Shown here: piece by piece, positions 11 to 44,748 of the stretch | How the letters are laid out: each line of letters opens with the position of its first letter | How positions within the stretch are numbered: position 1 is the first letter of the stretch | Source: Ianthella basta | Taxonomy: Eukaryota > Porifera > Demospongiae > Verongiida > Ianthellidae | Length of the DNA stretch: 64,000 nt | Assembly (NCBI GenBank): GCA_964019415.1 | Contig: OZ025879.1 | Location: 511,001 to 575,000, forward strand | Direction: 5' to 3' | The notes under the pieces: generated by a model | Seen by the model: the letters and a program-made list of their open reading frames with translations, nothing else | The model's database searches: none | Told to the model about the DNA's origin: nothing | Program-made: the position numbers and the translations under genes

Positions 11-3000
11 TATCAGCCAGTGGAGGCATTGTGACTTATTCCTGGCAGGCCACTGGGCAGGGGGCAGATCAGCTCACCTACAGAGCCTCTCTGAATGGAG
101 GAGCAGAGTTTAATGGTGAGTGCATTGATGTGCATCACATGCTGTTCCGCAATGACCCCCATCCCATTCTCCTTCAGCCACTTCTCCTTACACCCTCAAC
201 CTGACTGGACAGGCTGCTGGAGAGTATACTCTTTGTGTGATGGTTCTCCTGAATGGAGAAGTGGTGCAAGAGTTTGACCTGACTTATCTCTACTTCCAAC
301 TAAGTGGTGGTGGTGAGTGAAACATCCTCCCTTGGGGGCCATCCCTCCTGGACCCTGGTTGACTCCTGCCCTTCTCTGTATGGTGTCCTCCAGTTGCTCT
401 CAGCTCTGATGGTAAGAGCTACATCATCTCTTGGCAGGGTTCAGGAGCTGACAATGTCAGTTACACCATCTCCATCAATGGTGGACCAGAGATGCCAGGT
501 GAGTGAATCCCTACAGTGGTGCAGGTGCCACTGTGGTCTGTATGGACTCCAACCACCCACCTCCCCATGCAGCCACCTCTCCCTTCACAACTCCTGTGGC
601 GGGCTTCCAAGGAGCTGTTGTGACTAGCTATGGCAGTGACGGAAGTGCTCTGGCAACGCTGTCAGTACCAGGTGAGCTCTCCATTGTGTACTAGAGCAAC
701 TATGTAGTGTTAACTTGAATGGCTCCTTTCCCGCCCAACACACCCCAGCCCCAGCAACGCCTCCTCCCACCACCTCCACCCCTACGCCAGGTTAGCTGTG
801 TAGGGGCCATACGGTGGGGCACATGTCACTCCTACTGTATATGGCCACAGTACTGATCCCTACCTGTGTGTAACAGCACTTATTACATATGCTGTGCCTA
901 CCACAATGCACTAGTAGAGGCAAGGCAGTGCTGTAACTGTCAATACTGCACAGAGTATGCTCCTAGCTAAAACAGTTTGGTTGTGAACTTGAATGACTCC
1001 TTTTCCACCCAAGGTACCCCAACCCCAGACCCCAACTGTGTAAATGCAAACATTTCCACTCTGGACCGTAAGTCTGGGCAATTGTGTGTGTGTGTGCGTG
1101 CGTGCATGTGTGCGTGTGTGGGTGTGTGTGTGTGTGCGTGCGTGTGTACATGTGTGTGTGTGAGTTGTCTTTTGATGTGTGTGCATGTGCTTGTACAGCT
1201 GGTATATCCACTTTGTTGTGCTGCTGCGGAGTCCATTGGCTGACATTCTATGATTCCTATTGCCATGACAACAGGTGTCTGAATGCTGCACCTAAATCCA
1301 ATAGAAGTACAGCCCAACACTTCACACAGGTGTCTAAATTCCACAGATGCATTTGTGGGCACTTTGCAGGGTGCAAGAAGGATCTAGCAAGCTAGATGAC
1401 CTGTGTATCTAAATCCCATACGTAGATGTACTGGTGGGCAATTTGCAGGTCGTGTAAAGAGTCTCACTAGTATGCATCTAAATACAGTACAAGTTGATTC
1501 CATATAGAGATGCATCTGTGGGCACTGATGTAATATCATGAGAAGGAAAGGATCATAAGCGTAAACACAGCAAGGCCCGATGGAAGAAGCTACGTCCGAA
1601 GACAAAGCCGATGGAAGGAGCTACGGTCCAAAGACCTTAAGGCAACCTGTCGAAACAAGTCACGATTGGCGTCGTTACTGTCCGTAGACCTTTGAAATGA
1701 CTTTGGGCTGCAAAGAAAGTGGCACCGCCGGGAATCAAATCCAGGACATCTGGCTTTAGCTGCCAGTGCTCTAGCCACTGAGCTACTACACCCCGCCAGC
1801 AACCACACGCCGATCGTGACTTGTTTCGACAGGTTGCCTTAAGGTCTTCGGACCGTAGCTCCTTCCATCGGCTTTGTCTTCAGACGTAGCTTCTTCCATC
1901 GGGCCTTGCTGTGTTTACGCTTATGATTCTTTCCTTCTCAGCTATTTCTACGCAGCAATTATCCTTTAATTTAGCATGTAGTATCATGTCATCCTCTATA
2001 TGCAAATGTATGCCAATTATCTTACTCTAACACACGTACATCACTTCTAACTATTCTTTCAGTTCTCAGCAAAAGGCCACCCTAGGATGGAGGGGGGGAG
2101 GGGTGACAAAGTAGTGTAACTAGAGAACTCCTGTATGCCAATGAGCTCTACTCCTGGGCTTCTTGCATCCTCAACAGTTACCAATGATGCAGATGTCATT
2201 AAAAGGAGAGAGGGAGATGATTTTGATTGGGTTAGAGAACAGTTTTGGATCAATGTTACTTAAGTGCCAACTAATTGATGTCCTATGGGATTAAAACCAC
2301 TCAGCACTCTTACACACTCTTGGGCTTCATGCTTTAAATCTCACAGACCTTCGACATTCTATACTGTAGGTATGTGCAGCCACTTCAGCCACTTTTTCAT
2401 TTGTTCAAATTCCACTCCTTGGAGGAGGTCTAGTCTCCCTCTCTGTGGTTGTAATGTAGCCTGCACTTGTGGGAGACCTTTGCATGGGAAGCCATCTGAA
2501 TGGAAGCCAATTCTATCTGTCCCTCCCTGCAGGTGACTACCTCTGGCCTTCTGGTTTTGTTCGGTTCAAATGGACCAGCAATATGACATCCACACGTTGC
2601 AAGCTGGATGGAGGACAGGAAATGGACTGTGAGTGACTGAATAGACAAGTTGAAGCAGTGGGAGGTCTTGACTTGAGAAGGCCATTGCATTCACTCCTCA
2701 CAGGTGAGAGTGGAGTACAGTACTTTTTGGGGAATATCACTGCTGGGAAGCACTCAATAGAGGTGGTAGCCTACTGCAGTGGAGTGCAAGTTCGAACTGA
2801 ACAGAAAAACTTCCGATGTAAGAGTAGCCTGAACCATGTATGGTAGGAGAAATCACTGTGGATGCCTTCCTCCTTCTCTCTCTCCCCCTCCCCCTCCCCC
2901 TCCTCCTCCTCATCCATTCAGCCCAGAGTGGCATACCTAGTGACCCGGTTAACTGCCAGCGCATGTCCATCCAGAATTCCACGGCTGTGTACGATGCAGC

Positions 3001-3303
3001 TGCAGAGACAGTTTCCATCACTTTTGACACCAGCACTGCATCCACCTGTGTGTGCAAGGTGCCAGCAATAGGCCAGAGGAAGAGAAACTGTAAGTGATGG
3101 TGATCCATTGATTGAGTGGTCCAAATGTGACTGATACCTCTCCCTCCCACCCCACTGTCCTTGCAGGTGAATCAGGCCATGTGTTCACTGGTGCTATGAA
3201 ATCACTCTTTGGCAGAAGGATAAGGTCCAAAGTGGCTGTGATCTGCAAGTCAGCTGACTGTGGCGTCAAGCACATGGTTCCTGTTTACTTCAACCTCCCC
3301 TAA
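11..3303 (+). CDS. Gene A: secreted modular protein, 3' part only (family with B-E)
   Basis: Left edge is cut: the window opens with a splice acceptor (exon starts at 11). Exons: 11-115, 178-312, 394-498, 573-671, 749-790, 1014-1067, 2533-2628, 2704-2817, 2922-3089, 3167-3303 (stop TAA). Every intron is phase 1. The first four exons form two two-exon modules (a half with a W and an S-x-NGG turn, then a half starting ATSP). Exon 749-790 is a Pro/Thr-rich linker. The last four exons are the family's C-terminal region: a YLWPSGFVRFKW strand with C-K-LDGG and C, a second half with NITAGKHSIEVVAYC, then a CVCKVP exon, ending with KHMVPVYF. From exon 749-790 on it is nearly identical to gene B. Function unknown; an extracellular structural or binding role is inferred from B and E. 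The head and signal peptide lie outside the window. Confidence 0.75.
1084..1165 (+). repeat. TG-rich microsatellite in gene A intron 6
   Basis: Interrupted TG/CG dinucleotide tract. The duplicate at about 9255-9297 in gene B is shorter, so repeat length has changed since the duplication. Confidence 0.9.
1541..1988. mobile_element. Fold-back/MITE-like insertion with tRNA-like core
   Basis: Left arm about 1541-1667 and right arm about 1812-1939 are inverted repeats of roughly 128 bp with few mismatches. A spacer of about 145 bp between them holds a tRNA-like sequence on the minus strand. The 7-bp sequence TATCATG occurs at 1534-1540 and again at 1982-1988, as expected of a target-site duplication. 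The homologous position in the second copy of the surrounding block (about 9665-9680) has a single TATCATG and no insert, so it is the empty site. No transposase frame is present, so the element is non-autonomous. Confidence 0.85.
1719..1793 (-). pseudogene. tRNA-like sequence inside the insertion
   Basis: On the minus strand the core reads as a tRNA: an A-box-like TAGCTCAGTGGC, a five-base-pair anticodon stem CTGGC/GCCAG and a B-box-like GATTTGATTCC. The position normally U33 is G and one T-stem pair is mismatched. It therefore looks like a degenerate tRNA-derived sequence (SINE head or captured tRNA), not a working tRNA. Confidence 0.65.
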
Positions 3304-4391
3304 TTGGAGCAGAGCAAGGCAGTGCAGATGCTCAGGGATTTAGTTTGCTACCAGAAACTAGAACACAATACACTGTCTTAGATTGAACTATTATACTTGT
3401 TTATATAGGCAACTATCAGTTACTAATAGCTGTATTGTGTTATGTATTGATCATTGCAAGAATGAGGCACAAGATCTATATAGCTAGGCAGCACATGGCA
3501 TGTATCTACTCACCATGCATGCTGAGCAAGCAGTTCGTATGTGTATGGCTTTGATCATGATTGGCTTCTGATTTGGTTTGCCTGGTAACACCTAAGACAT
3601 TATGTCTTCTTCATTCTTTGAATGCAGCTCACAAATGGACCTTGTACATGTGTATGCTTGTCACATGGCCAGCAGCACACAAGGTACCCACACAAGTGCT
3701 TGGAGAGCTGGGTCTAGTGTGGTTGTTGGGTTTCATGTTGTACACCCCTAATCTGTCTGCTATATACTATATACGTATGCTGTTGCCTAGCAACTGTCAG
3801 AGTGAGCGTGTTGCTGGTTGCATACAGTATACACTCAATCAGAGCACATAATACATAGATACAGCCTTGCCCCCCATGCAGTACACTGTGTACTGCACTT
3901 TAACATGCCTTTCCTCATTTTGGAATACCCTATAAACAGCAAAGGCAGCACAAGCTACTCTTGCTTGCCATTGGCAGTGGAGTAAGCTTCATGCATGTAC
4001 TGTATGTGTACAGAACGGTTTACTGCAAACTAGCTTACACCAAAACTCTTGTAAACTTCTGTCTCCAGAGATACTTTGAAAACATAAGAGTCTGCTAGTC
4101 TGCTGACACCCTAGCAAATCTTTGGGATTCTGGTGAACTCATCTGGTGTCAACACATTCTAGGTAACTATCAGCCTAACTATCTGGCTTCCCCTGCCAGG
4201 CAAATTAGGTCCCAAAGGGACAGCACAGCTGGTGTCACCTGTGTGGAAGCAAGTGAAGTGAAGCTATTATTAGTCAAAGCAGTATGAACACATACATCCT
4301 GAGCACTGGTCACCAGGGCAGCTGCCAGACCATCCTTATTACAAGGTGTTAATTTGATAATGACTTTTAATATAATTTGCTTTGCATGACT
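3304..4391. other. Intergenic, gene A to gene B
   Basis: No coding exon with consistent splice sites seen. It holds the presumed 3' end of gene A, a perfect RFX X-box-like palindrome at 3782-3794 and the upstream region of gene B. Confidence 0.6.
3782..3794. promoter_or_regulatory. X-box-like palindrome (RFX motif)
   Basis: GTTGCCTAGCAAC fits the RFX X-box (GTNRCC, 0-3 bases, RGYAAC) with a one-base spacer. It lies 664 bp upstream of the gene B start codon. Binding is an inference; one such motif can occur by chance. Confidence 0.4.
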
Positions 4392-4398
4392 TATATAA
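4392..4398 (+). promoter_or_regulatory. TATA box of gene B
   Basis: TATATAA lies 60 bp upstream of the inferred ATG at 4458. Related genes D and E have similar boxes at similar distances, which supports a shared promoter layout. Confidence 0.6.
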
Positions 4399-4457
4399 CC
4401 CACCTTAGCCCAGGCTGACTGCTCTTTGTGCTCATTTGTGTGTGGTTCAGAGTGACA

Positions 4458-7400
4458 ATGCTGTCTTCCCTTGGTCAGTGCTGGAGGTTTGGTGGTGTCC
4501 TGTGCACCTGAGCTGCTGGTGATGTGGTGACTTCTGGTCTCTGTCCCTCTTTGCCACAGGTGTGGCAATCCTGCTGGGCTTGCTAGCCAGCGCCACAGCA
4601 CAAAGTAGTGGTAAGTTATTCAACTGTGAGAAGATCTGTTCCAATCTTCACACATGTCTGATCCAGTAGTCTGCAGTTCAGTCCAATTACACTGAATATG
4701 CACTGAATATGCACTTCCGACTGTACAGTTCCTTGCTCGAAGAGTTTCATTGTCGCTGAAGGTGCCTACAACGCCTCCTGGAAGGTGGAGGGGGATGACA
4801 TTATCTTCACAGTCAGAGCACGGACAACAGGATGGGTGGGCATTGGCTTCTCAAGGGACCAGAGAATGGTGAGTGCCCAATGTAGTGTACCAGTGAGGTT
4901 GGCACACACAAGTGCAGCTGATGTACTACAGCTGTGCCACTAAACCATGTGATGTGGATATCACAGTGTGTGTACAGGTGCAACTGGAGGTTTAGGTCTC
5001 TTCTGCTGACCAAGGCTTCTGTTGTAGTACAGAACTGCTCCATGTGTGCTTGTTCCCTTCCAAATGCAGGCCAATTCAGACATCGTGGTTGGTGGTGTGT
5101 TCCAAGGAACTACTTTTGCATATGATGGGTATGTTTCATACAGTACATCACAACATTTCAGTGTGTGGTGTGAGGAGTGATGGCATGTCACTTCTTGCAT
5201 GCATACACACCATCCTCCAGATATGCTATCCAGCAAGCTCGGCCACCAAAGGACCCTCAGCAGGACATCACGGATGTGACAGTGACCCAGGCCGGTGGAG
5301 TGACCACCCTCCAGTTCACCAGAAAGAGAGTGACTGGGGACACCAATGACCTTGCCTTGGACAGTCCCTTTTACTTACTGTTTGCATGGAATGGTCCTGT
5401 CACTGGTGTTGAAGTGATTGGCTACCACGGTGCAACCCGAGCAGTGAGTTTTGAAACGGTCACCATTCCCACAGCCCAGCAGTGCACAAGTGAGTACACT
5501 CTGACCTCACATACAGATCAAGGAATCCCCTATGTATTAGTTTGTTTCAAAGTACTTGCATGTCCAGTGTCTTATAATTACAAGTCTCTACTACCCCTTA
5601 ACAGCTACCACTATTGGGCACAGTGGAAATGGTTAGTTCACACATGATGTCACATTGCCCAGTGTTCAAAAAGCCAGCCACTGGGTATGAATAGCTACAT
5701 ACTGTACTTTGGACTGCAGCTACATTTGATGGACAAAATGTGACGTTCACATGGGAGTCTACTGGTGCTACTGGACTGACCTACAAGTGTTCTCTGAATA
5801 ATGGGTCACTGTTTAACTGTGAGTTCATTTTCTCCACCATTTCAAACTGCTACCACTAGTACTAGCTGTGACAGCTCACTTCAATCATCTTTCTCTCTTT
5901 TCCCTCCTTCTCGTTTTTCATTACTTTTTAGGTACCCCTCCTATTGAGGTTCCATGTGACCAACTCCTGCCAGGGATGAACATGTTGGAGGTGATTGCCT
6001 GCTTCAGTGATGGACGGCCTGCTGGAAGCCTTAAAATCAAGATTACAGTTATTTGTAAATCTAGTAAGTTCTGCCAGCATTCAGTGGGTTATCTCTGTAA
6101 TATCTCATACAGTGTGCCCTTCTATGATCCTGTCCTTGATACTTTCATGGCCCTTGACTTATTATTATGATTGTCTACTACCACACTACCACTACAGCCA
6201 CCACTATTACACACAATGGAACAGGTTAGTTCACACATACTGTCACATTGCCCAGTGTTCAAAGAGCCAGCACTGGGTATGAATAGCTACACATCTTGAA
6301 CTGCAGCTGAAGTTGTTGGAGAAAATGTGGTGTTCACATGGGAGTCTACTGGTGCTACTGGACTGACCTACAAGTGTTCTTTGAATGGTGACACACAGTT
6401 TGACTGTGAGTTCATTCACTACATGCATAATTTTCCAAACTACTACCAGTACTACTGTGACAGTTCTCTTCCGACCTCTTTCCCTCCTTCTCCTTCTCTT
6501 TATCCCTTCTTCATGCAGGTACCTCTCCATATTCGGTTGCATGTGCCAGCCTCCGGGAAGGGGAAAATGTGTTTACTGTAAGTGCCTTTCTCAGTGATGG
6601 ACGGTCTGCTGGAAGTATTCAAATCAAGGTTACAAAACCTCGTAAGTTGTGCCTGCATTTGTTGGAATGCCACCTCATTGTAGACCTAGGTATGTACTTT
6701 CATGGACATGTCTTCTTATTTCCCACCCAACACGCCAGCCCCTAGAGCCCTGCCCCCACGAGTGCTCCTATGCCAGATTAGTGTCGTATAGCTCATGTGC
6801 ATAATTCCGATATTGCCACAGCACTGATGTCTGCCTGTATGTAACAGTGTCCATTATTGTATGTATTGAGAATCACTAGCATGCTTGCCACAGTGCAATA
6901 ATGGAGGCAAGGCAATGTTGTTATTGTCGCACTGAATATGCAATTCCAACTGTACAGCTCCTTGCTCTGGGAGTTTCAGTATTTCAGGAGGTGCCTACAA
7001 CGCCACCTGGAAGGTGGAGGGGGATGACATTATCTTCACAGTCACAGCACAGACAACAGGATGGGTGGGCATTGGCTTCTCACAGGACCAGAAGATGGTG
7101 AGTGCCCAATGTAGTGTGCCAGAGAGGTTGGTACACACAAGTGCAGCTGATGTGCTACAGCTGTGCCACTAAACCATGTGATGTGAATATCACGGTGTGT
7201 GTACAGGTGCAACTGGAGGTTTAGGTCTCTTCTGTTGACCAAGGCTTCTGTTGTGGTACAGAACTGCTCCATGTGTGCTTGTTCCCTTCCCAATGCAGCC
7301 CAATTCAGACACTGTGGTTGGTGGTGTGTTCCAAGGAACTGCTTTTGCATATGATGGGTGTGTTTCATACAGTACATCACAACATTTCAATGTGTGGTGT

Positions 7401-10400
7401 GAGGAGTGATGGCATGTCACTTCTTGCATGCATACACACCATCCTCCAGATATGCTACTGCATATGCTCAGCCACCAAAGGACGCTCAGCAGGACATCAG
7501 AGATGTGACAGTGACTCAGGCCGGTGGAGTGACCACCCTCAGGTTTACCAGAAAGAGAGTGACTGGGGACACCAATGACCTTGCCTTGGACAGTCCCTTT
7601 TACTTACTGTTTGCATGGAATGGTCTTGTCTCTGGTGTTGAGATGATTAGCTACCACGGTGCTGCAACCCGAGCAGCAAATCCTCAAACAGTCACCCTCC
7701 CCACAGCCCAGCAGTGCCCACGTGAGTACACTCCGATTGAGTGAGTACACTCCAATTGAGAAATCCCCTATGCATTTTGCTTTAAAATGCCCATGTGTGC
7801 ATTACTATTTGGGATGTATCTGTAATATCTCACACTGCCCTTCTATGATCCTGTCCTTGATACTTTCATGGCCCATGTCTTATTATTACAAGTGTCCACT
7901 GTCACTATACTACTGCAGCAAGCACCACTGTCCGGCAAGGTAGTACGTAATTGTTGCACTGAATATGCACTTCCAACTGTACAGCTCCTCCCTCTGGGAC
8001 TTTCACTGTCTCTGGAGGTGCCTACAATGCTACCTGGAAGGTGGAAGGGGATGGCATTATCTTCACAGTCACAGCACGGACAACAGGATGGGTGGGCATT
8101 GGCTTCTCACAGGACCAGAAGATGGTGAGTGCCCAATGTAGTGTACCAGAGAGGTCGGTACACACAAGTGCAGCTGATGTACTACAGCTGTGCCACTAAA
8201 CCATGTGATGTGAATATCACGGTGTGTGTACAGGTGCAACTGGAGGTTTAGGCCTCTTCTGTTGACCAAGGTTTCTGTTGTGGTACAGAACTGCTCCATG
8301 TGTGCTTGTTCCCTTCCCAATGCAGCCCAATTCAGACACCGTGGTTGGTGGTGTGTTCCAAGGAACTGCTTTTGCATATGATGGGTATGTTTCATACAGT
8401 ACACCACAGCATTTCAGTGTGTGGAGTGAGGAGCGATGGTATGTCACTTCTTGCATGCATACACACCATCCTCCAGATATGCTACTACGTATGCTCAGCC
8501 ATCAAAGGACGCTCAGCAGGACATCACGGATGTGACAGTGACTCAGGCCGGTGGAGTGACCACCCTCAGGTTTACCAGAAAGAGAGTGACTGGGGACACC
8601 AATGACCTCGCCTTGGACAGTCCCTTTCATTTCCTGTTTGCATGGAATGGGGTTGTCACTGGTGTTGAGATGATTGGCTACCATGGTGCTGCGACCCGAA
8701 TAGCGAGTGACTTGTTCACCTTCCCAACAGGTGAGTAAACTCCCTCAGCTGTGCCTGGCCCCACCCCAGCCCCTACTCCAATGCCAGACTAGCTATGTAA
8801 TGTGTCGTATGGCACACATCACTCCTCTTGCCATAGTACTGATTCTTGCGTGTACTAGAGCAACTACGTAATGTTAACTTGAATGGCTCCTTTCCCGCCC
8901 AACACACCCCAGCCCCAGCAACGCCTTCTCCCACCACCCCCACCCCTACTCCAACGCCAGGTTAGCTGTGTAGGGGCCATAGGGCGGGGCACATGCTGCT
9001 CCTACTGTATATGACCACATTACTGATCCCTGCCTGTGTGTAACAGCACTTATTGCGTATACTGTGCCTACCACAGTGCACTAGTGGAGGCAAGGCAGGG
9101 CTGTAACTGTCAATACTGTACAGAGTATGCTCCTAGCTAAAACGGTTTGGTTGTGAACTTGAATGTCTCCTTTCCACCCAAGGTACCCCAACCCTGCCCC
9201 CTGCCTGTGTAAATGCGAACATTTCCACTCTGGACCGTAAGTCTGGGCAATTGTGCGTGCGTGCATGCGTGCGTGCGTGTGTACATGTGTGTGTGTGAGT
9301 TGTCTTTTGATGTGTGTGCATGTGCTTGTACAGCTGGTATATCCACTTTGTTATGCTGCTGTGGAGTCTATTGGCTGACATTCTACTGTATGATTCCTAT
9401 TGCCATGACAACAGGTGTCTGAATGCTGCATCTAAATTCAATAGACATACAGCCCAATACTTCACACAGGTGTCTAAATTCCACAGATGCGTTTGTGGGC
9501 ACTTTACAGGGTGCAAGAAGGATCTAGCAAGCTAGACGAGCTGTGTATCTAAATCCCATATGTAGATGCACTGGTGGGCAATTTGCAGGACATGTAAAGA
9601 GTCTCACTAGTGTGCATCTAAATACAGTGCAAGTTGATCCCATATATAGAGATGCATCTGTGGGCACTGATGTAATATCATGTCATTCTGTCAGATGTAT
9701 GCCAATTATCTTACTCTAACACATGTTCATCGCTCCTAACTATTCTTTCAGTTCTCAGCAGAAGGTCATCCTAGGATAGGGGGGGGAGGGGGGTGGCAAA
9801 GTAGTGTCACTAGAGAACTCCTGTATGCCAATGAGCTCTACTCCTTGGCTTCTTGCATCCTGGACAGTTACCAGTGATGCAGATGTCATTAAAAGGAGAG
9901 AGGGAGATGATTTTGATTGGGTTAGAGAACAGTTTTGGATCAATGTTACTTAAGTGCCAACTAATCAGTGTCCTATGCATGGGATTAAGACCACTCAGCA
10001 CTCTTACACACTCTTGGGCTTCATGCTCTAAATCTCACAGCCCTTCAACATTCTATACTGTAGGTATGTGCAGCCACTTCAGACACTATTTCATGTGTTC
10101 AAATTCCACTCCTTGGAGGAGGTCTAGTCTCCCTCTCTGTGGTTGTAATGTAGCCTGCACTTGTGTGAGACCTTTGCATGGGAAGGACTAGGGTTAGGAA
10201 TGTTCTCACAATGTCACATACTGTGTGTATGATGGTGTTACTGTGCTATCTGTGTGGTTGGATGGGTGTCTCGTCATCTGAATGGAAGCCAATTCTATCT
10301 GTCCCTCCCTGCAGGTGACTACCTCTGGCCTTCTGGTTTTGTTCGATTCAAATGGACCAGCAATATGACATCCACACGTTGCAAGCTGGATGGAGGACAG

Positions 10401-11079
10401 GAAATGGACTGTGAGTGACTGAATAGACAAATTGAAACAGTGGGAGGTCTTGACTTGAGAAGGCCATCACCTTCACTCCTCACAGGTGAGAGTGGAGTAC
10501 AGTACTTTTTGGGGAATATCACTGCTGGGAAGCACTCAATAGAGGTGGTAGCTTACTGCCGTGGAGTGCAAGTTCGAACTGAACAGAAAAACTTCCGATG
10601 TAAGAGGAGCCTGAACCATGCATGGTAGGAGAAATCACTGTGGATGCTTTCCTCCTCCTTCTCCCTCTCCCCCTCCCCCTCCTCCTTCTCACCCATGCAG
10701 CCCAGAGTGGCATACCTAGTGACCCGAACTGCCAGCGTATGTCCATCCAGAATTCCACGGCTGTGTACGATGCAGCTGCAGAGACAGTTTCCATCACTTT
10801 TGACACCAGCACTGCATCCACCTGTGTGTGCAAGGTGCCAGCAATAGGCCAGAGGAAGAGAAACTGTAAGTGATGGTGATCCATTGATTGAGTGGTCCAA
10901 ATGTGACTGATACCTCTCCCTCCCACCCCACTGTCCCTGCAGGTGAATCAGGCCATGTGTTCACTGGTGCTATGAAATCACTCTTTGGTAAAAAGAAAAG
11001 GTCCAAAGTGGCTGTGATCTGCAAGTCAGCTGACTGTAGCGTCAAGCACATGGTCCCTGTTTACTTTGACCTCCGCTAG
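4458..11079 (+). CDS. Gene B: secreted protein with three DOMON domains
   Basis: Exons: 4458-4473, 4560-4610, 4729-4868, 5070-5128, 5221-5489, 5605-5631, 5720-5818, 5932-6063, 6198-6224, 6307-6405, 6519-6641, 6958-7097, 7299-7357, 7450-7721, 7919-7939 (least certain), 7985-8124, 8326-8384, 8477-8730, 8913-8960, 9183-9236, 10315-10410, 10486-10599, 10701-10865, 10943-11079. They join in frame to 866 aa. A signal peptide (MLSSLGVAILLGLLASATAQ) spans exons 1-2. DOMON domains lie at about residues 23-178, 348-504 and 512-662, recognised by TTGWVGIGFS, a Met before NSD, VVGGVFQG, a TVTQAGGVTTL strand and TG(D)TNDLALDSP. Between DOMON 1 and 2 are two beta-sandwich-like modules with YKCSLN and C. 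A Pro/Thr linker (exon 8913-8960) and the family C-terminal region follow. DOMON folds bind haem or sugars in other proteins; the ligand here is unknown. No membrane segment is seen after the signal peptide. Confidence 0.85.
4729..8730 (+). repeat. Three tandem DOMON gene segments with near-identical introns
   Basis: Units 4729-5489, 6958-7721 and 7985-8730 each have three exons of about 140, 59 and 254-272 nt, and their introns are almost the same sequence. Equivalent donors at 7098 and 8125 are 1027 bp apart. The two Ig-like segments (5605-6063 and 6198-6641) are also near copies. This indicates recent tandem duplication or gene conversion. Confidence 0.92.
8851..11079 (+). repeat. Duplicated block, copy 2 (in gene B)
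   Basis: Counterpart of 687-3303. It gives the empty site for the 448-bp insertion and has about 85 bp not present in copy 1 (near 10188-10272). Confidence 0.93.
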
Positions 11080-11947: not shown

Positions 11948-13996
11948 ATGTGTTCGGCTCAGTCTATAGCCCGTCAGTATATCTGGTTTGTAATCCACCG
12001 CTCGCGGTATAATTAACACCGCCTCTGTTTCTCTTTCTACTAGGATGCCTCGTTATCCTGTCAGCTCTGTTCGGAACATTCAGCAACTCTGAAGGTACGC
12101 GGTCGTTGCTAGCATACAAAGTGATTGTGTCCTGCGCACCTATCGATACCCTGTAGCTATAGCTACATTCACCTCCGTTAGTACACGTCTGTTCCTTTCA
12201 GTAATGTTGACTACCTTGAAGTAACCCAGCTTCATCACATGATTTATTCTTAATTATCAGTGTGGTGGCTAACAGTATTTCTGACTGACTGGCTTGATGA
12301 AACCACTCATCTTCTCAGTTCAATGCCCCCCCCCCCCCCCCCCATATGCTCCTTAGGGTGCCTCTTTGAAGTTGGACAGGTAGTTCTGAGGCCAGGCCTT
12401 GTCAGACTGTCCTACACAGCAGCACAGGTGTCATCTGTTCAGTGCAACATTGATGATGACGCCTTCATTGACTGTGAGTACCTAGCTATATTTGAGAATG
12501 TTTGCCTAACCCTGCTGTAACTCTGTTTACTTGTCATGGGGTTGTGATGGATGTCTTAAAGTACAGGACAAAATTACCAGTGTATATACATGCAATGTCA
12601 CAGGTATTGAACGTTTTAGAGCCCCCAGAATGTATTCTGTCTCTCTCCTGTGAGCTCAGGCCCCGATGGTACAGAGCTTGTCCTCACACGGGGTGGGATT
12701 CATTCTTTGAGCTTTGCCATTGTCTGTGACAATGGCTCCAACATCATGGCAGGACCATTTCTGATCAACTCACCAGAGCTGGCACCTTGTGGAGCTGCGC
12801 ACGTCTCCAGGATACAGCGTGAGTCGCAGGTCCTGCAAGGCTTCTGAGTGCGCTAGTGGGGTAGGGCAGGGTTGCTAGGGTGCATGCATGGTGTGAGGCA
12901 CACTAGTAATACATACTAGGCAAACTGGAGATTTTGGTATGCTAGAGATTTTACAGCTATGCGATGATGCCATAGCCTCAGAATGTAGAGTATTTGGATG
13001 GCATAGCACTTCCTAGTGGGGTTATAACATACCCATTTTGTCTGAATAGAATTACTACACTAATAGTTACTGTTATTACTTATGCAAGTATAATACTGCT
13101 ACTGTGGGAATCTCTCACAATGTCCACCTTCTAGAAAGAGCTATGTGTGTGAATAATTTGATAGGAAACAAGATTGCTTAATATAGAAGATGGGCTTATA
13201 AGTAAACAAAGGATGCATGTGTGAAATGTCAGGGGACAAACACAATACATATAGCTATGTATAGGTCCCTTGTGTGAGGAGTCTTCTAACACACAGTACG
13301 TATATGACAGCACATGATTACAACAATGACACAAAGTCCACATGATGTGGGGTGATTTGAGGCCTGTGCAAGTGGCAGCTGCTGTGTGCTATTGTCTGAG
13401 AAACAGAACTCTTCTTTGTATCACCACCTACATAGCTCGGCATAAAGCTTGTGTTCATGTTTATGTGCTGTGACCGGCCAATAATGTTAGGTAGGTGTGA
13501 TGTCTGTAAGTATGTACAAGTCCACAGCTTGTTCTTCACAGTCCGCAGGTCCTTTGATGTTTTCAGGATGCTCAGCTTCAGTTGGAGAACTACAGGAGAT
13601 GTTCACTACACAAAGTACCAGATAGACCAGGGCGAAGAGGTTGAAGGTGTGTAAAGGTTTTGGAGTTGAAAGTGGGTTTTGGAGTAGATTCATCTCATAC
13701 AGGAAGGTTTGGTTGATCAATTGAAAGTAGACATGGTGAACAATTACACAGGGCACTGTAGCATCTCTTACATGGTGGGATGAAGTTTGATGTATGTAGC
13801 AAGTTCCTGGTTTGCATGTTCTACTTTTCTGGTATATTGATGCAGTCACAAGTCCCTATGAATTGCCATTGTTTGACCGATGTGAGAGCAGGATGAGAAT
13901 AACAGTGAGGGCCTACTGCAATGGCAGAGCTGTTGCTAACAGAACTAAGAGGTTCCACAGTGAGTGCACCATGCACAAGCAACTCACTTCTTGCAC

Positions 13997-14046
<50 letters not shown>

Positions 14047-14663
14047 CACACAAGGTATGTGCAGCTGCAGCCCTCTATTCACTATGCAACACAACACACA
14101 ATGTACTGTGCAGCTTTAGTGGTCTGTGGATGTATTCACAACAAAAAGTGTATTGGTATATTAACTATAATTTATACATTTTTTCCTGCATGCCCTGATT
14201 CCTTCAGACTTCAATGGCCTATCCTGTAACCATAGCTGCGGCAACATCAGCTTTACCTCTGCTCCCTCGACAATCTACAATGCTGTCACTCGTACTGTTG
14301 CTGTGGACTTTGCTACCACTGTACCCTCAATATGTAAATGCAGGGAAAAATCGCAATCAACGTACAACTTTCAGGACTGTAAGTTTTACCTGCATGCTCT
14401 CCACCACCACTGCAACAGCTAGTATTATAGGTATGTGTGGCAACTATATAGGCAGTAGTACATGCAGTCAGCTACCATTCACTGTCTACAGTAACACCAA
14501 TTCATAATATGCAGGACTGCCGTACATTCTGTCTTCCTGCCATCCCTATCATGGTGCAGGTGCTGACATCCCGGTGAACAGGCCTAGTGGTCTCATCACA
14601 ATCAGTTGTCGAACAGTGGATGGCTGTAGGACCATCATTCGCAACCATATTAACTACGCATAG
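11948..14663 (+). CDS. Gene C: small secreted member of the modular family
   Basis: Exons: 11948-11972, 12044-12094, 12357-12473, 12660-12818, 13542-13646, 13846-13959, 14208-14378, 14560-14663 (stop TAG). They give 281 aa and all introns are phase 1. Exon 2 is 51 nt, the same size and place as in gene B, and encodes a hydrophobic signal core (CLVILSALFGTF). Two two-exon cysteine-bearing modules follow (SSVQCNIDDDAFIDC plus its partner; YTKYQIDQGEEVEG plus a half with AYCNGRAVANRTKRF). The end is a divergent form of the family C-terminal region (CKCREKS, then CRTVDGC). There is no DOMON, Calx-beta or Pro/Thr linker. The first exon is the least certain. Function unknown; this looks like the minimal form of the family. 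Confidence 0.72.
13999..14052 (+). repeat. CA microsatellite in gene C intron 6
   Basis: Nearly pure CA tract beginning about 40 bp after the exon 13846-13959 donor. Confidence 0.95.
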
Positions 14664-15273
14664 CAACTGTATTGAAGTTGATACCAATACCCTTCACACA
14701 CATCAAAGTGAATGACAAAGTCAGATGATTAAACATTTATAGTCCACTAGTTTTTGATGGATCATTGATTAATTTGATGATTACATGGGAAGTTGTATAA
14801 TTATATGATTATGAAGATTTTAATTTTTGCGTATGACAGCACCTGAATGCAATTCACTCCCAGTGTCAGCGTCTGCCCAACACATTGCACGAGTACATGG
14901 GTGCAATTTGCCAGAACTGCAGTGACAATTGCAAGTGAGCAGCTCTTCATGGGATGATAACAAATGGCTCAGCTATTGATGAAGCTTACTAGAGAGTTTG
15001 AAAGCATTGCATACAGACTAATTAATCAATGAAAGTTAACAGAGTTTGAGTAACTTGCACTTCTGAGTAGTCAGCAGAGTTGCATCATCATACGATCCCC
15101 GTCAGACTGGCAACTACAACCTTCTTTCGGAGGCAATTAACAGTGACACTTCTTATAAGAGCTGCTTTCTTGAAAGTAATACCTTTACAATAAAAAGACA
15201 GTATATAAAGATACAGCATCAAGTTCTCGGTAACAAGTGTGCTCTAAACACCGCCTGCTATGGCATATTAAAA
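14664..15273. other. Intergenic between convergent genes C and D
   Basis: AT-rich 3' regions of both genes. No exon or RNA gene recognised. Confidence 0.6.
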
Positions 15274-19648
<4,375 letters not shown>

Positions 19649-19703
19649 TTCCTTTGATCGATCTTCACACAGAGCACTGCCGATCGATCGATCTAGCGCG
19701 CGC

Positions 19704-19713
19704 TTTTTATATA
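19704..19713 (-). promoter_or_regulatory. TATA box of gene D
   Basis: The minus strand reads TATATAAAAA about 60 bp upstream of the ATG at 19648, flanked by GATC/CGCG-rich sequence. Confidence 0.65.
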
Positions 19714-21175: not shown

Positions 21176-21185
21176 GTCACGTGAC
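21176..21185. promoter_or_regulatory. CLEAR-type E-box at SNAPIN start
   Basis: GTCACGTGAC, a perfect 10-bp palindrome identical to the TFEB/MITF CLEAR consensus, ends 9 bp before the SNAPIN ATG. CCGGAAG (ETS-type) overlaps its end at 21185-21191. CLEAR elements mark lysosome-related genes in vertebrates; use of the site here is inferred. Confidence 0.5.
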
Positions 21186-21194
21186 CGGAAGAAA

Positions 21195-22849
21195 ATGGCT
21201 GACACAAGTGAAGTTGCTTTGGACGAGCATGTGGATGTCCCGGGAGATGAGGAACGCCTTGCGGAGGGAGAGGAGACACCTGTTACAGAGGGAGGGGACG
21301 CGCCTGTTACAGAGGGAGGGGACGCACCTGTTACAGAGGGAGGAGACGCGCCTGTTACAGAGGGAGGAGACGCGCCTGTTACAGAGGGAGAGGATGCACC
21401 TGTTACAGAGGGAGGGGAGACAAATCCTTCAGAGGGAGAGGACCAAGTTGTGCTGAACAAGCTAGCTGAGGGTATATTTGGTCTGCTAGGTCCCGCTGTC
21501 AATGAAATCGATGACAGAGTTGCAGATGTGCGGTAAGGATAGGTGGTTCTCCACTCTCTCCCTCCATCACATGGACTATATACTACGCATCATTGTGTGT
21601 ATTAAACGTACATGTGTCTGTATACAACATGTTGACATGCATGCTATGTGATATGTTTCTTGTGCAAGAAGTGCATCAAGCTTGAGTTGTACTGGGTCCC
21701 TTTGCTGCCCCTCTCTGTGCAGGAAGAGCCAGTCCGACCTCAAAGAGCAAGTTGACCGTCTGCATGATGGTATGAGGTAGAGGGTGGGTGTGGTGGGAGT
21801 GTGGGGTGTGAGGGCAGAGGTGTGGTGGGGGTGTGGGGTGTGAGGACAGAGGTGTGGTGGCAAAGGAGCCACTAGTAGCTAATCAGGTTGTGAGTGTTTG
21901 TGCTCCTTGTTGTGTGAACATGGTTAACTAACAGTTTGTGCCTGTGTGTCATCAAGTGGGGATTCTCATGTTGCCTTGCTCAAGTTGTAACCCCTGGCAA
22001 CCAGTTACTGCTCTTAATCAGAGAACGCGTCCACTAGTTTGTCCGGTGGTGGTACCGCATTGAGTGGGACTTTTGTAATTGCCAGCCTAGACTCAGTGTC
22101 TCGTAGCAGCAACTCTTCATTGTGCTGTGCAGTGTGAACTGAGTTAAGACAACTTGTGGTGTGTGCAGGGAAACACCGCCAGGCCGGTGACAGGCATGTG
22201 TTGGCCATGGTACAGCAGTGCTTATCAAATAGACTCACAATAAGATTGAATTCAAATATTTATTGTGTGTTTATCATTGGTGTATGTACTGGTCTACATT
22301 GGGTCAATGCATGCAACGTGTCATTGCAGCCTGCTGTCCTCTTCTCTTGCAGAGCTAAAGCGTATTGCTGAGCAGAAGGAGGTCCCCCACACATTGGAGT
22401 CATACATAAACAAGCTGTCCAACTGTAGGAGACGCATGCATCTTGTCAATGAGCTCCTTAAGAACATCCAGGTAGAGGGCATCACAAGAGGGTGGAGCTG
22501 CTTCAGTAGTGTGCACCTGTGGTGTGTGTGGTGCTGTGATTGGATGGAACAGCATTGGTGTGCATAACCATAGCAACACTGTTTAAAATATGGCTACCAA
22601 AGTGTGAAGGGTTGTCAACTTGTCAAGGGTGTGGCTGTGTATTAGGTTATAACCCCTGTGCATGTGTAGGTGTACCTCATTATGTGTGTGTGCATGTGCC
22701 AGTTGCTGAGAAGATGGCTGCTTGTTGACCGGTGTCAGTGGCACTCACACATTCTGTAGGAGCGATTGAATAAACTGCAGCAGAATGTTGCCAAGGAGAC
22801 CACCCGGAAGAGAGTGTCATTGGAATCAACTTCGTACTTGAGCAATTAG
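21195..22849 (+). CDS. SNAPIN: SNAPIN (BLOC-1/BORC subunit)
   Basis: Exons 21195-21532, 21723-21769, 22353-22471, 22760-22849; 197 aa. From LAEGIFGLLGPAVNEIDDRV to the end the protein follows animal snapin: QSDLKEQVDRL, YINKLSNCRRRMHLVNELL, then ERLNKLQQNVAKETTRKR. Snapin is a small coiled-coil subunit of the BLOC-1 and BORC complexes, which govern lysosome-related organelle biogenesis and lysosome positioning, and it binds SNAP-25-type SNAREs. The start at 21195 has a good context (AAAATGG); ATGs at 21156 and 21174 are in frame upstream. Unusual: residues of about 27-90 are acidic and contain about five tandem copies of an 8-residue unit (EGGDAPVT) encoded by a 24-bp minisatellite, absent from vertebrate snapin as I know it. 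The gene is convergent with STX18. Confidence 0.92.
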
Positions 22850-22895
22850 TTTTGTATTGTTTGCATTGGAATATTCCTGCATGCTGTGACTGTAC

Positions 22896-22981
<86 letters not shown>

Positions 22982-23256
22982 TTGTTTCAGTGAATATGTG
23001 TGCAACCATCTCTTGTAATTCAGTTGAAAATGATGTTAACTTGCCATAAGAGCAATCTCGTCACACCACACACAAACACACACAGGTTGTGTGAGTGAGC
23101 GGGCTAAACCCTGCATGCACTCCTTCATTAAACATGACCTGACTAGCACTAACAGACTGCGCATGCACACATGGCTCCATTACATTATATGTAGTGGTTC
23201 TGTATTGATCGGATTGAGGCGTGTATGGGGACGGGGGGAGGGGCACTCCCCAGTGG
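22850..23256. other. Intergenic between convergent SNAPIN and STX18
   Basis: 407 bp between stop codons, with a CA microsatellite at 22897-22980. No other feature seen. Confidence 0.7.
22897..22980. repeat. CA microsatellite
   Basis: Nearly pure CA tract of about 80 bp just after the SNAPIN stop. Confidence 0.96.
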
Positions 23257-25822
<2,566 letters not shown>

Positions 25823-26313
25823 TGTCCCTACATTAAATCATAGATAGATACTGAACTGGTAATGTCGTACAGATCATGACTCAGCCTACAGCGCCATTTT
25901 ATTTCCGTTGCGCAATGTTTTGGAATGGAAATTTTCATACATGGTCAATTTTTTGACACCAAAAATCCGGAACTAGCTACAGTGCATTCTATTATATGGC
26001 ATAAATTTTCCTCGTGCCTTTTCGTGTGCGTGTTGACTTAATGCAATATAATTGTATATAGCTGATGGATCAGATTAATTAGCTATATCCCAAAACGGAG
26101 AGAGATTAGCTGTCTGGTCACGTGAAGACAAGATTGAAGAAGATAACTCCTTCTTATATACAGTATAGTTAAACATAATTCTGAGTTGCAAGGGAGTCCT
26201 TAGGAGCCACCTGCCTCTGCCAGCAGCCGGCTTGGACAAGCAGTTTGACTAAATTAATGCATAACGTTAAAAATCTAATTAGTCTCTTAGCATCTGATTA
26301 GCTTCTGCTCCAA
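25823..26313. other. Intergenic: STX18 5' side and gene E 3' side
   Basis: Contains the STX18 promoter. No TATA box or exon is recognised. Confidence 0.6.
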
Positions 26314-29300
26314 TCAGCGCAGGTTGAACAAGACCGGTAGCATGTGCTTCACTCCACAGTCATCTGATGTGCACACCACAGCCATCTTAGACCTGCGCCT
26401 TTTACCAGTAAATACAGCACCAGTGAACACGTGGCCTGATTCACCTGTGGGGGGGGGGGGGGGGGGGGGGGATGATGGAAATTATCTCAAGGCAATACAC
26501 CTACTTCCTTGTATACAAGAGCCAGGTGTGGGAACAAGTAATGAACATGAGCATGATAATGGCAAAAGAAGATTGCTTCTGTGTCTAACAGACAGCCCTC
26601 CTTGGCCTCTTGCAGGCTCAAGCTCACTAGAGTCCACAGCTAGACACATTAACCATTATCATCACTCACATCCCTGTTTCCTCTGGCCTATTGCTGGCAC
26701 TTTGCACACACAGGTGGATGCAGTGCTGGTGTCAAAAGTGACGGAGATAGTCTTTGCTGTTGAGTTGTACACAGATGTGGCATTCTGGATGGACATGCGC
26801 TGGCAGTTCGGGTCACTAGGTATGCCACTCTGGGCTGCATGGATGAGGTGGAGGACGGGGAGGGGGAGGGGAAAGAGAGGAGGGGGGAGGAGGGGAGGGG
26901 GAGGGAAAGAGGAAAGCAGTTGCAGTGATTAGATTTCTGCAGGTCATTTCTCTCACCATGCATGGCTCAGGCTGTGCTCACATGTGAATCTCTTCTGTTG
27001 AGAGGAAATTCTCTCTCCATTGGCACTGCAGTATGCAATGACCTCCACTGCATGCTTCCCAGCAGTGAGGTTGTACAGGTCATACCGCACTCCACTCTGA
27101 CCTGGTGTGAAGACAACACCCAACTGACAGGTCAACACAGGGTCAGCAGTGACCACTATAGCACCTTGGCACAGATATAAGTCATTCAGTTATTCTGTAG
27201 TATATACGTATGTAAAATTGAGCTGTGGGAGTGCATATGCTCTGCATCTCCTCCTTCGTGACACTCAGATCACAACACTGCACTCTGTAGGTGTGTCTAC
27301 ATGTAAGAGTGCCCACCAGTGTGTGTGTGTCTGGTGAGCCCTCTGCCACAGCATAGACTGCTCCAGCCAGTGCTACCACATTAAAGCAATGAGATGGTGA
27401 CTCAGGCTCCGGGCAGTACTTCAGCTTAACATTACTCACAGTCCACTTCATCTCCTCCATCCAGTTTGCACCCTGTGGATCCCACATTGCCGTGCGTGGT
27501 CCATTTAAACCGAACAAAGCCAGAAGGCCAGAGGTAGATGCCTGCAGGGAGGGACAGAAGGAAGTGACTACATATCACAGAAAACCCTTCAATCGTCAAA
27601 GAGAGGAAGGTGCTGAAGAGAGGTCAGTCATGCATGTACAGAGCACATGAAGAAACACACACACTTTGGGGGATATCCATGAATGACACACACATACTTA
27701 CATAAGGACAGAGACTCACGTTTCAATGGGGATGTGCCAGTACGCTTGCAGGTTTGGACGGCCGCCTCTCCAGAGCCAACCTGCTCTCCTCCCTGAAGTG
27801 CTGTCACCTTCACCACATGGTTTGCAAGAGGCAATTCCTCTTCAGGAACAATGTAGCCAGGGTGACCTAACAAGGGGACATGGGAGGAGGAGGGAAGTGA
27901 AAGGAGAAGAGAAATGTGTGCTATGAGATGAGGTCTTACAGACAACTGGAGAGCCATCGTCGAGAGAGCACTGATAGGTAAGTCCTCCTACAGCATCCCA
28001 GGTGATGGTGGCACTGCCATTTGGGTTCAGTGATGAGACGGGCTCTGACAGACAGGGGTGAGAGGGGGAGGCAACGGGTTAGTGCGTTTGTAAGATAGGA
28101 CCTTCTGTCAACAGGTCACAGTCTACTCCACTCACCTGGATCAACAGACGGTGACACTGCAAGGGACAAGCAGTAGGGGTATAGGTGACATGACAAGGTA
28201 TGACAAGATATGTCAAGGTGTGACATGTCATGAGAGATAATATAATGTGTGGTAAAAGATCAAAAAATTTAATGTGAAGTGTGGTTGGACAGAATGTGGA
28301 GTGTGGTGGGAGAGAATGTGGAGTGTGGTGGGAGAGAATGTGGAGTGTGGTGGGAGATAATGTGGAGTGTGGTGGGAGAGAATGTGGAGTGTGGTGGGAG
28401 AGAATGTGGAGTGTGGTGGGAGAGAATGTGGAGTGTGGTGGGAGAGAATGTGGAGTGTGGTGGGAGAGAATGTGATGTGCGGTGGGAGAGAATGTGGAGT
28501 GTGGTGGGAGAGAATGTGGAGTGTGGTGGGAGAGAATGTGATGTGCGGTGGGAGAGAATGTGGAGTGTGGTGGGAGAGAATGTGGAGTGTGGTGGGAGAG
28601 AATGTGAAGTGTGGTGGGAGAGAATGTGATGTGCGGTGGGAGAGAATGTGGAGTGTGGTGGGAGAGAATGTGGAGTGTGGTGGGAGAGAATGTGATGTGC
28701 GGTGGGAGAGAATGTGGAGTGTGGTGGGAGAGAATGTGGAGTGTGATGGGAGAGAATGTGGAGTGTGGTGGGAGAGAATGTGATGAGCGGTGGGACTAAT
28801 TGACCCGACTGCATCATCTTGATTTCACAAGTGTATAGGAATCGAGCACAGCTCCACCCCCCTACACTCACCATCATCATCCTGGATGTACACAACTGCC
28901 TCACTCCTATCACCCACAGCATAGTTCACTGCGACTAGAGCAACATTAAACTCTTCCACAACCTCAGGGATGCTGTCATCAACGATGCCAATGGTGAATT
29001 CCACCTCAGACTCTCCCTCCGACAGAACACTAGTCAGCTGTATGCCACTCGGCAGGATGGCCATGGTGCCTGCCAGACGGTAATCTGTGCCATCTGTAGT
29101 CAGTGGAACAGTTCAGATAAGCGTGTGACAAAGGCTCAAACGTGAGACAATCACAGCCTGAAGTAAGTGGTGCAGTGTGGTGGTGTGGTGGTGTGGTGGT
29201 GCCAATCGGCTTGCGGAAGTGCATAACAGTCCTACCACAATCACCACATTACATCACGTGGACCTCACTTCTGACTGGACAGAATCCTTCATGGTATGTA

Positions 29301-31749
29301 TGTTAAGGGGGTAAGCATGTTGAGTGCCAGACAGTAATAGAGTACTCACTGACAGCTGAGCCATCTGAGACCAGCAAGAATACTATAGTGTCATCTGTGG
29401 CTGGCTGAGATGACACAACACGCACTGCCACACTGCCACCTCCTTCTGAGACATTGTAGTGGTCCTGATCCAGTGAGAGACTCAGTGCTGTTGGCAGCAG
29501 GAGAAGGACAAGAAGACCAAGAAACTGAGTATGATCAAATGATGGAGAGTGAGCACATGCTCCACTGACCGTCATCATCTTTAATATACACAGCTGCTTC
29601 CCTCGTTTGACCCAATTCATAACCATCTCTTGCCACAAGAGCAACATTAAACTTTTTGTCCTGGAACTCTGGTGTGTTATCATTAAGGATGGTGATAGTG
29701 AAGTCCACGTGGGTCACTCCCATCAGAAAGACAGTCGACAAAGACCCAGCCTGTAGGTAGTCGAGGCCGCCTGTGCAAGGCAGAGAGGGGAGGGCACTTC
29801 ACAGCACACAACGCACTCACACATGTAACATACAGTGACACACCACACTATGTGCACCCTCTCCTCTCAAGTGCTATGTACGTAGCATGCAGTCAACTAC
29901 ACTAATAGTGTGGACGCAGCTTCCTTAACAGTTGCATGGTAGGCTACTCACTGACAGCTGAGTCATCGGAGAGCTGAATAGTTACTATGGTGATTTGAGG
30001 CACTGGCTGTGATGCTATGACACGCACAATCACACTGCCGTCATCCTCGTTCACATCATAGCGGGTTTTCTCCAGAGAGAGTTCCAACATGGCTACAGGG
30101 AGAGGGACGCACACATACAACCTTACTAATACTGCAGTGGGCAGGGAGAGCCAGGCCTGTATGCACACTGCAGTGGGAAGGGAGAGCCAGGCCTGTATAC
30201 ACACTACAGTGGGCAGGGAGAGCCAGGCCTGTACACACACTACAGTGGACAGGGAGAGCCAGGCCTGTACACACACTACAGTGGACAGGAGAGCCAGGCC
30301 TGTACACACACTACAGTGGGCAGGGAGAGCCAGGCCTGTACACACACTGCAGTGGGAAGGGAGAGCCAGGCCTGTACACACACTACAGTGGGCAGGGAGA
30401 GCCAGGCCTGTACACACACTACAGTGGGCAGGGAGAGCCAGGCCTGTACACACACTGCAGTGGGCAGGGAGAGCCAGGCCTGTACACACACTACAGTGGG
30501 CAGGGGAGCCAGGCCTGTACACACACTACAGTGGGCAGGGAGAGCCAGGCCTGTATACACACTGCAGTGGGAAGGGAGAGCCAGGCCTGTATACACACTA
30601 CAGTGGGCAGGGAGAGCCAGGCCTGTACACACACTGCAGTGGGCAGGAGAGCCAGGCCTGTACACACACTACAGTGGACAGGGAGAGCCAGGCCTGTACA
30701 CACACTGCAGTGGACAGGGAGAGCCAGGCCTGTACACACACTGCAGTGGGCAGGAGAGCCAGGCCTGTACACACACTGCAGTGGACAGGGAGAGCCAGGC
30801 CTGTACACACACTGCAGTGGGCAGGAGAGCCAGGCCTGTACACACACTACAGTGGACAGGGAGAGCCAGGCCTGTACACACACTGCAGTGGGCAGGGAGA
30901 GCCAGGCCTGTACACACACTACAGTGGACAGGGAGAGCCAGGCCTGTACACACACTACAGTGGACAAGGAGAGCCAGGCCTGTACGCACACTGCAGTGGG
31001 CAGGGAGAGCCAGGCCTGTACACACACTACAGTGGACAGGGAGAGCCAGGCCTGTACGCACACTACAGTGGGCAGGGAGAGCCAGGCCTGTACGCACACT
31101 ACAGTGGACAGGGAGAGCCCGGCCTGTACGCACACTACAGTGGACAAGGAGAGCCCGGCCTGTACGCACACTACAGTGGGCAGGGAGAGCCAGGCCTGTA
31201 CACACACTACAGTGGACAGGGAGAGCCAGGCCTGTACACACACTACAGTGGGCAGGGAGAGCCAGGCCTGTACGCACACTACAGGGGACAGGGAGAGCCA
31301 GGCCTGTACACACACTGCAGTGGGCAGGGGAGCCAGGCCTGTACACACACTACAGTGGCCAGGGGAGAGCCAGGCCTGTACACACACTACAGTGGCCAGG
31401 GGAGAGCCAGGCCTGTACACACACTACAGTGGGCAGGGAGAGCCAGGCCTGTACACACACTACAGTGGACAGGAGAGCCAGGCCTGTACACACACTACAG
31501 TGGACAGGAGAGCCAGGCCTGTACACACACTACAGTGGGCAGGGAGAGCCAGGCCTGTACACACACTACAGTGGGCAGGGAGAGCCTGGCCTGTACACAA
31601 CTTACACTGTGCTGTGGTGCTGGCTAGCAAGCCCAGCAGGATTGCCACACCTGTTGCAAAGAGGGACAGAGACCAGAAGTCACCACCTCACCAGCAGCTC
31701 AGGTGCACAGGACACCACCAAACCTCCAGCACTGACCAAGGGCAGGCAT
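26314..31749 (-). CDS. Gene E: secreted protein with two Calx-beta domains
   Basis: Exons in transcript order: 31737-31749, 31606-31650, 29952-30092, 29570-29770, 29350-29487, 28872-29093, 28136-28156, 27940-28044, 27720-27866, 27440-27541, 26982-27101, 26670-26834, 26314-26444. They give 516 aa and all introns are phase 1. The signal peptide is MPALGVAILLGLLASTTAQ, nearly that of gene B. Two Calx-beta domains at about residues 20-133 and 134-253 are each split over two exons (Y-V-E-G/D-G-S-V-x-V-R-V, then VDFTITILNDN or VEFTIGIVDD, ending in DDD). A 21-nt exon links to one beta-sandwich module (YQCSLDDGSPVVC plus a second half), then the family C-terminal region (YLWPSGFVRFKW, NLTAGKHAVEV, CVCKVPAIGQ, KHMLPV). 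Calx-beta domains bind Ca2+ in exchangers, integrin beta-4 and sponge aggregation factors. Introns 2 and 6 hold large minisatellites. Confidence 0.85.
28270..28795. repeat. 22-bp minisatellite in gene E intron 6
   Basis: About 23 copies of a 22-bp unit (GAGTGTGGTGGGAGAGAATG plus TG), with variants GATGTGCGG and GAAGTG recurring in a regular higher-order order. It keeps false frames open on both strands. Confidence 0.96.
30130..31600. repeat. 36-bp minisatellite in gene E intron 2
   Basis: About 40 copies of a 36-bp unit containing GGGCAGGGAGAGCCAGGCCT then GTACACACACTACAGT. A few units are one or two bases shorter or longer. Because 36 is a multiple of three, all frames stay open for hundreds of codons, but these frames are not genes. 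In the sense of gene E each unit ends with CTCTCCCTGCCCACTGTAG, which looks like a 3' splice site, and the true acceptor just downstream (exon 29952-30092) is CTCTCCCTGTAG. Confidence 0.95.
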
Positions 31750-37989: not shown

Positions 37990-44029
<6,040 letters not shown>

Positions 44030-44283
44030 CAAAGTTGTTCATTCATTCCACACCATGCATGTGATTGCTTACAGCTATCATAGTAATTATACACAGTGTG
44101 ACCAGCTCTATGGAAATATTGAGAGTACAGGTCTAGCTAGCTTGCTATGTAGCTGCATGTACGTATACACCTGTGGAAGGGAAGTGTGTGTCATTGGGTG
44201 ACGAGACATGACTGACAAGTATACTGGCTGGCCTATGTGGCCATATGGTACACAGTCACTGAAGTGTTACAGCTAGCTGTGAC

Positions 44284-44746: not shown

Positions 44747-44748
<2 letters not shown>

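Follow-up and report, generated by a model that had tools for sequence, protein, structure and literature searches.

How does a cluster of neighbouring genes come to share one protein plan and to carry different head domains on it? The question is raised by a stretch of 64,000 nucleotides from the demosponge Ianthella basta (the window; contig C12:511001-575000, in an assembly of 209 Mb and 96 contigs), in which gene models were rebuilt from homology and splice sites, the latter ranked by a home-made consensus score. Five genes, A to E, lie between coordinates 11 and 31749 of the window, and a sixth, Z, lies upstream of A. The reading we favour, with middling confidence, is that they form a single-locus sponge family of six or more proteins, probably secreted, that it arose by duplication and phase-1 exon shuffling, and that it serves adhesion or a coat with exchangeable heads. 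The architecture, the intron phases, the confinement of close relatives to the locus and the agreement of exon borders with those of a small number of Calx-beta and DOMON genes read elsewhere are established from the DNA itself.

The common chassis consists of a two-exon signal peptide, a variable number of fibronectin type III (FN3)-like modules of two exons each, and a cysteine-rich tail, with a proline/threonine-rich (P/T) linker in A, B and D; DOMON triple-exons (B, Z) or Calx-beta exon pairs (E) are spliced into it. When translated, the model of gene B (4458..11079, plus strand; 21 exons) gives 859 residues in a single frame from ATG to stop. Gene C (11948..14663, plus strand; 8 exons) gives 281 residues with no recognised head, gene D (15088..19648, minus strand; 14 exons) 732 residues with 42 cysteines, and gene E (26314..31749, minus strand; 12 exons) 509 residues in a model without a P/T linker. 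The 10 exons of A inside the window (11..3303, plus strand) form the 3′ portion of a gene with 34 exons and about 1,240 residues that begins 8.4 kb upstream, at C12:502577; coordinate 11 is thus a splice acceptor and not a gene start. The donor of one of the 33 introns in the full model of A was placed separately, as a phase-1 GTAAGT. Gene Z, with three DOMONs, is modelled as 31 exons in one open frame; the model does not extend to its signal peptide, its linker or its final exon pair, and its tail exons were found separately. Every intron in the window models of A to E is GT-AG, and parts of Z, A and B have recently been duplicated in tandem. The open-frame models of A to E uphold the initial sequence-only reading of five genes with one chassis and different heads, and the family extends to Z.

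The introns of the window models that lie outside DOMONs number 54 (9 in A, 14 in B, 7 in C, 13 in D and 11 in E) and are phase 1 throughout, to which the acceptor at coordinate 11 may be added; those that interrupt DOMONs, six in all, have phase 0 or 2. When upstream A and Z are counted, 102 introns are phase 1 and 12 are phase 0 or 2. The sequence-only reading had described the same pattern and the same six introns, but its count of 57 outside DOMONs must be lowered to 54. Because the first exon lists presupposed phase 1, a phase-blind splice test was done on 75 matches in the cluster to hidden Markov models (HMMs) of module half-exons, whose seeds were drawn from the window itself. The best acceptor was phase 1 in 71 of the 75 and the best donor in 70. 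Eight of the nine exceptions are in D and one is in E. Several exons of D each contain two fused half-modules, and the exceptions in D fall mostly where half-modules share one exon, so that no splice site is expected there. The test rules out phase 1 as an artefact of the exon filter; the tested half-exons are duplicates of each other, and the phase counts are therefore not independent events.

Modules, DOMON triples and Calx-beta pairs are flanked on both sides by phase-1 introns, apart from the D exons with fused half-modules. Phase-1 introns bound the domains of the class 1-1 modular extracellular proteins of Metazoa, according to the excerpted text of Patthy (PMC8001218); as described there, those proteins resemble the cluster in their phase-1-bounded domains, their signal peptide and the phase-1 intron in the signal-peptide region. 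The module of the cluster differs in having an extra phase-1 intron at mid-module, mostly at the codon of the second cysteine, and in belonging to no Pfam family. Taken with exon borders that match elsewhere in the genome and with a cassette that was apparently exchanged recently, the phase-1 pattern bears out the earlier proposal of exon shuffling.

The heads belong to familiar families. A Pfam scan of the four complete models (B, C, D and E; E 0.01) confirms the three DOMONs already recognised in B (PF03351, 3 stretches, 286.8 bits against a cut-off of 32.7) and the two Calx-beta domains in E (PF03160, 2 stretches, 83.1 bits against a cut-off of 27). No Pfam family is found in C or D at that threshold, which agrees with their description as modules only. 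The models of A and Z, which were not scanned whole, contain modules, DOMONs and linker. In B each DOMON is spread over three exons (4729-4868, 5070-5128 and 5221-5489; 6958-7097, 7299-7357 and 7450-7721; 7985-8124, 8326-8384 and 8477-8730), and in E each Calx-beta domain over two (29952-30092 and 29570-29770; 29350-29487 and 28872-29093). The haem ligands of DOMON domains are methionine and histidine. M46 and H135 are invariant in all three aligned domains of B; no haem-bound template was matched, and the best match in the PDB is dopamine beta-hydroxylase (E 0.0074). Two minisatellites lie in introns of E. One, of 36 bp (30131-31599; 41 copies, 94% match), takes up the intron that separates the signal peptide from Calx-beta and has long open frames on both strands; the other, of 22 bp (28271-28782; 23 copies, 93% match), lies between Calx-beta 2 and the module.

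Elsewhere in the genome there are at least 150 Calx-beta and at least 154 DOMON matches, and some of these share exon borders with the cluster. All five second-half Calx-beta exons taken from two large arrays start and end at the same place and in the same phase as those of E. Since other listed Calx-beta matches have the whole domain in one open frame, the split seen in E is not general. In a DOMON gene on C14 the first donor and the last acceptor fall at the residues where they lie in B (53% and 44% identity), and DOMONs on C4 and C9 lie in a single open frame. The domains of B exceed the PF03351 cut-off but are joined to FN3-like modules, and the one on C14 adjoins EGF-like repeats (by eye). 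Large clusters of Calx-beta exons occur on C11, C6 and C23, and of DOMON exons on C1, C2, C14 and C19; in stretch L063 of C23 (~2670-3998) the Calx-beta exons have beside them a long open frame with, by eye, the look of a retroelement gag.

The module, by comparison with the heads, has no Pfam or NCBIfam family. There are two copies in the window part of A (11-115/178-312 and 394-498/573-671), two in B (5720-5818/5932-6063 and 6307-6405/6519-6641), two in C (12357-12473/12660-12818 and 13542-13646/13846-13959) and one in E (27940-28044/27720-27866). Gene D has six by HMM and one N-terminal copy by eye, including a whole module in a single exon at about 15912-16131. The 15 aligned modules are 68-81 residues long and most have a cysteine pair. 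A structure model of the single-exon module of D (residues of 15913-16128) is all-beta, with a mean pLDDT (predicted local distance difference test) of 80.4, and the module models as a fibronectin-III/PKD-like sandwich. The likeness to such sandwiches lies in the predicted fold of this one module. It is set apart from them by its shortness, by the cysteine pair in most copies and by fn3 and PKD profiles below cut-off; indeed, no fn3 domain was detected with Pfam in the 15 modules at E 0.1 or in the 4 full proteins at E 0.01. Bacterial transfer of the module was rejected, as none of 270 pattern hits of a composite query against prokaryote genomes (84,980 species) was confirmed by tblastn, in a search that reaches close relatives and leaves a distant origin outside its range. 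The P/T-rich linker occupies 695-790 and 1014-1067 in A, 8859-8960 and 9183-9236 in B, and 15588-15680 in D. A long intron of A contains a stretch of about 400 bp (1539-1940) that gives a 79% alignment to its own reverse complement.

The tail comprises four exons in B (10315-10410, 10486-10599, 10701-10865 and 10943-11079) and in E (27440-27541, 26982-27101, 26670-26834 and 26314-26444), and in A a tail module (2533-2628, 2704-2817) and a terminal exon pair (2922-3089, 3167-3303). The terminal pair is assignable in C (14208-14378, 14560-14663) and D (15300-15437, 15088-15182) as well, with six invariant columns, four of them cysteine, across the five window genes. Identity to the pair of B is 76% in E, 19% in C and 24% in D, and the assignment in C and D therefore leans on position and phase. 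The shared C-terminal region claimed at the outset can thus be assigned in all five genes, and it is probably a run of diverged modules, on the weak evidence of an alignment between the terminal exon pair and the module in which the cysteine junction coincides (hhalign E 0.0027, probability 11%). No Pfam family matches the tail, and a match to a common unrelated domain, which would have told against the sequence-only reading, was thus not seen in Pfam. Comparison of the tails of A or B with that of E gives dS (synonymous divergence) of about 0.54 and dN (nonsynonymous divergence) of 0.18-0.19, which indicates constraint; over the tail pairs (3 of 3) dN/dS is 0.33-0.39.

The signal-peptide cassette offers what may be a glimpse of recent shuffling. 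A short ATG exon, a phase-1 intron and a hydrophobic exon are present in B (4458-4473, 4560-4610), E (31737-31749, 31606-31650), D (19615-19648 and the start of 19369-19515), A and Z. The common signal-peptide layout that had been claimed for the five genes holds for these; in C (11948-11972, 12044-12094) there are many candidates for the ATG exon, and the one chosen is a guess. The cassette of E (31606..31749, minus strand) is 96% identical over 141 bases to that of B (4458..4604, plus strand; exon 1, an 86-bp intron and exon 2). The two introns agree without gaps at 84 of 86 sites, and the similarity stops at or close to the cassette edges. The four tail exons of the same genes are 68-87% identical, and their three tail introns match at 33/69, 80/101 and 44/77 sites, with 275, 46 and 148 gap columns. 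These cassettes, on opposite strands, are separated by 27 kb of DNA that holds C, D and two further genes. Because they are nearly identical and the tails diverged long ago, it is strongly suggested that the cassette was recently converted or copied between genes. Constraint on the cassette intron is the alternative explanation. Comparison with known RNAs gave two Rfam matches for that intron, at E 0.67 and 0.84, far under the gathering scores.

If the heads are common in the genome, the chassis appears, as far as searched, to be private to the locus. Searches with single sequences, exon by exon, placed within the cluster 16 of 17 tail and module matches in one search, the other (E 0.77) lying on C23, and 40 of 40 in a second. 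All four copies of the signal-peptide cassette are in the cluster, in Z, A, B and E; the open reading frames of D and C begin with other sequences, and no copy of the cassette was found in these two genes by the single-sequence search. Within this very cluster such searches failed to pick up the tails of C and D, as well as the majority of the modules of these two genes, so that diverged relatives elsewhere could escape them. Near other DOMON or Calx-beta genes, 16 loci and 6 short stretches were scanned with profiles of the module and the first tail exon, and no convincing match emerged. Module-like matches on C23 (E 0.77; E 0.012 and 0.032 in a small database) are taken as spurious, since they lie on the strand opposite to the Calx-beta exons. 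There is a weak match on C10 (E 0.12), and there are weak tail-exon matches in L060 (E 0.032), L061 (E 0.11) and L005 (E 0.16). Among the papers listed, mostly outside subscription journals, titles and abstract openings yielded none describing such a family.

What might these proteins do? They are probably secreted, to judge from signal peptides recognised by eye and from the finding that no further stretch is strongly hydrophobic: a simple scan (no trained predictor) of B, C, D and E gave no 19-residue hydropathy mean above 1.57 beyond residue 30. Alr-type membrane allorecognition proteins are transmembrane Ig-like receptors, from which B, C, D and E differ in showing no transmembrane-type stretch in this simple scan. 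Under the favoured reading of adhesion in a matrix or cell coat, the tail would dock each protein to a common partner there, the modules and linker would act as a spacer, and the heads would bind, DOMON to haem or another small ligand and Calx-beta in a calcium-dependent contact. The adhesion or self-recognition role proposed earlier is at this point a guess. We think that the most likely function is adhesion, by exchangeable heads, in the matrix or the cell coat, followed by immune recognition and then by a passive matrix and the aggregation factors. Secreted innate-immune recognition, in which DOMON or Calx-beta heads and module arrays bind microbial or foreign surfaces and duplication alters the repertoire, seems unlikely. 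The proteins have no known immune domain, and dN/dS among the DOMON repeats of B and Z (0.33 to 1.4, defined for 14 of 15 pairs, 2 above 1) overlaps the range of the tail, with small counts. That divergence looks relaxed, and with the recent tandem duplications in Z, A and B it would suit structural proteins of the matrix that are merely passive, in which case the differences in domain make-up would play no part in recognition and the duplications would be neutral. We consider this quite unlikely, as every modelled copy has open frames, the DOMON methionine and histidine are invariant in the three domains of B, and the tail is under constraint.

It had also been proposed that the cluster recalls the sponge aggregation factors. 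Aggregation factors have Calx-beta as their main ectodomain, a Wreath domain and, in some members, a VWD domain; Grice and colleagues reportedly described them in 2017 as a gene cluster with symmetric phase-1 exons and Calx-beta exon pairs. The sponge host, the clustering of the genes, the phase-1 exons and the Calx-beta exon pairs of E, whose internal split matches the exons of the two large arrays, are all shared with them. Divergent members of that family, acting in cell aggregation and self-recognition, nevertheless seem very doubtful here. Calx-beta occurs in one of the five window genes, with two copies in E and none in B, C and D, and the models of the five genes other than E, Z included, have FN3-like modules and a private tail in its place. 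Pfam (E 0.01) detects no VWD domain in any of the 4 complete models, and the single-sequence searches found no close relatives of the module or tail outside the locus. The module and tail profiles gave no convincing match around 8 Calx-beta loci or in another three stretches with Calx-beta. The parallel is one of style, and true aggregation-factor genes are better sought in the Calx-beta clusters on C11, C6 and C23. The excerpted text of a review ascribes demosponge allorecognition to clustered aggregation factors that contain Calx-beta (PMC10815962). In that of an Amphimedon grafting study, aggregation-factor adhesion genes were not significantly enriched (PMC5450542), which would weaken the recognition role itself. 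A combinatorial locus for self/non-self or microbe recognition, apart from the aggregation factors, we regard as equally improbable; there, ectopic recombination through phase-1 introns would continually move cassettes (signal peptide, modules, DOMON or Calx-beta) among the genes of the locus, and individuals would differ in the heads set on a common docking tail.

Two unrelated genes at 21147-25900, by eye SNAPIN-like (plus strand) and syntaxin-18-like (minus strand), separate D from E; the SNAPIN-like frame contains a 24-bp repeat at 21264-21418. The cluster is followed at 39501-59443 by conserved genes, identified by eye as an IQ-motif/AAA protein, mitochondrial RNA polymerase and a CIAO1-like WD protein, and about 1.3 kb of simple repeat at 56704-58003 has long open frames in several frames and a strong GC skew. 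In the mitochondrial contig of the assembly (21,233 bp, of which 20,000 were read) the cox1 frame contains 9 TGA codons taken as tryptophan; atp9 and 20 tRNA genes (ARAGORN) are present, and the gene order includes nad6-nad3-R-nad4L-cox1-cox2-K-atp8-atp6-R-cox3, the protein genes being named by eye. This gene content marks the host as a sponge, probably a demosponge. Silicatein was also considered as a sponge marker: a motif search in 9 of 30 papain-family loci found the motif in 4, all of them cathepsin-type.

The locus thus offers a view of exon shuffling almost as it happens, in an animal of an early-branching lineage: its heads share exon borders with other families, its units have recently grown in tandem, and a signal-peptide cassette has apparently passed from gene to gene with its intron nearly unchanged. 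With a module and a tail that belong to no Pfam family, it may have a role, open to test, in sponge adhesion, matrix or recognition.

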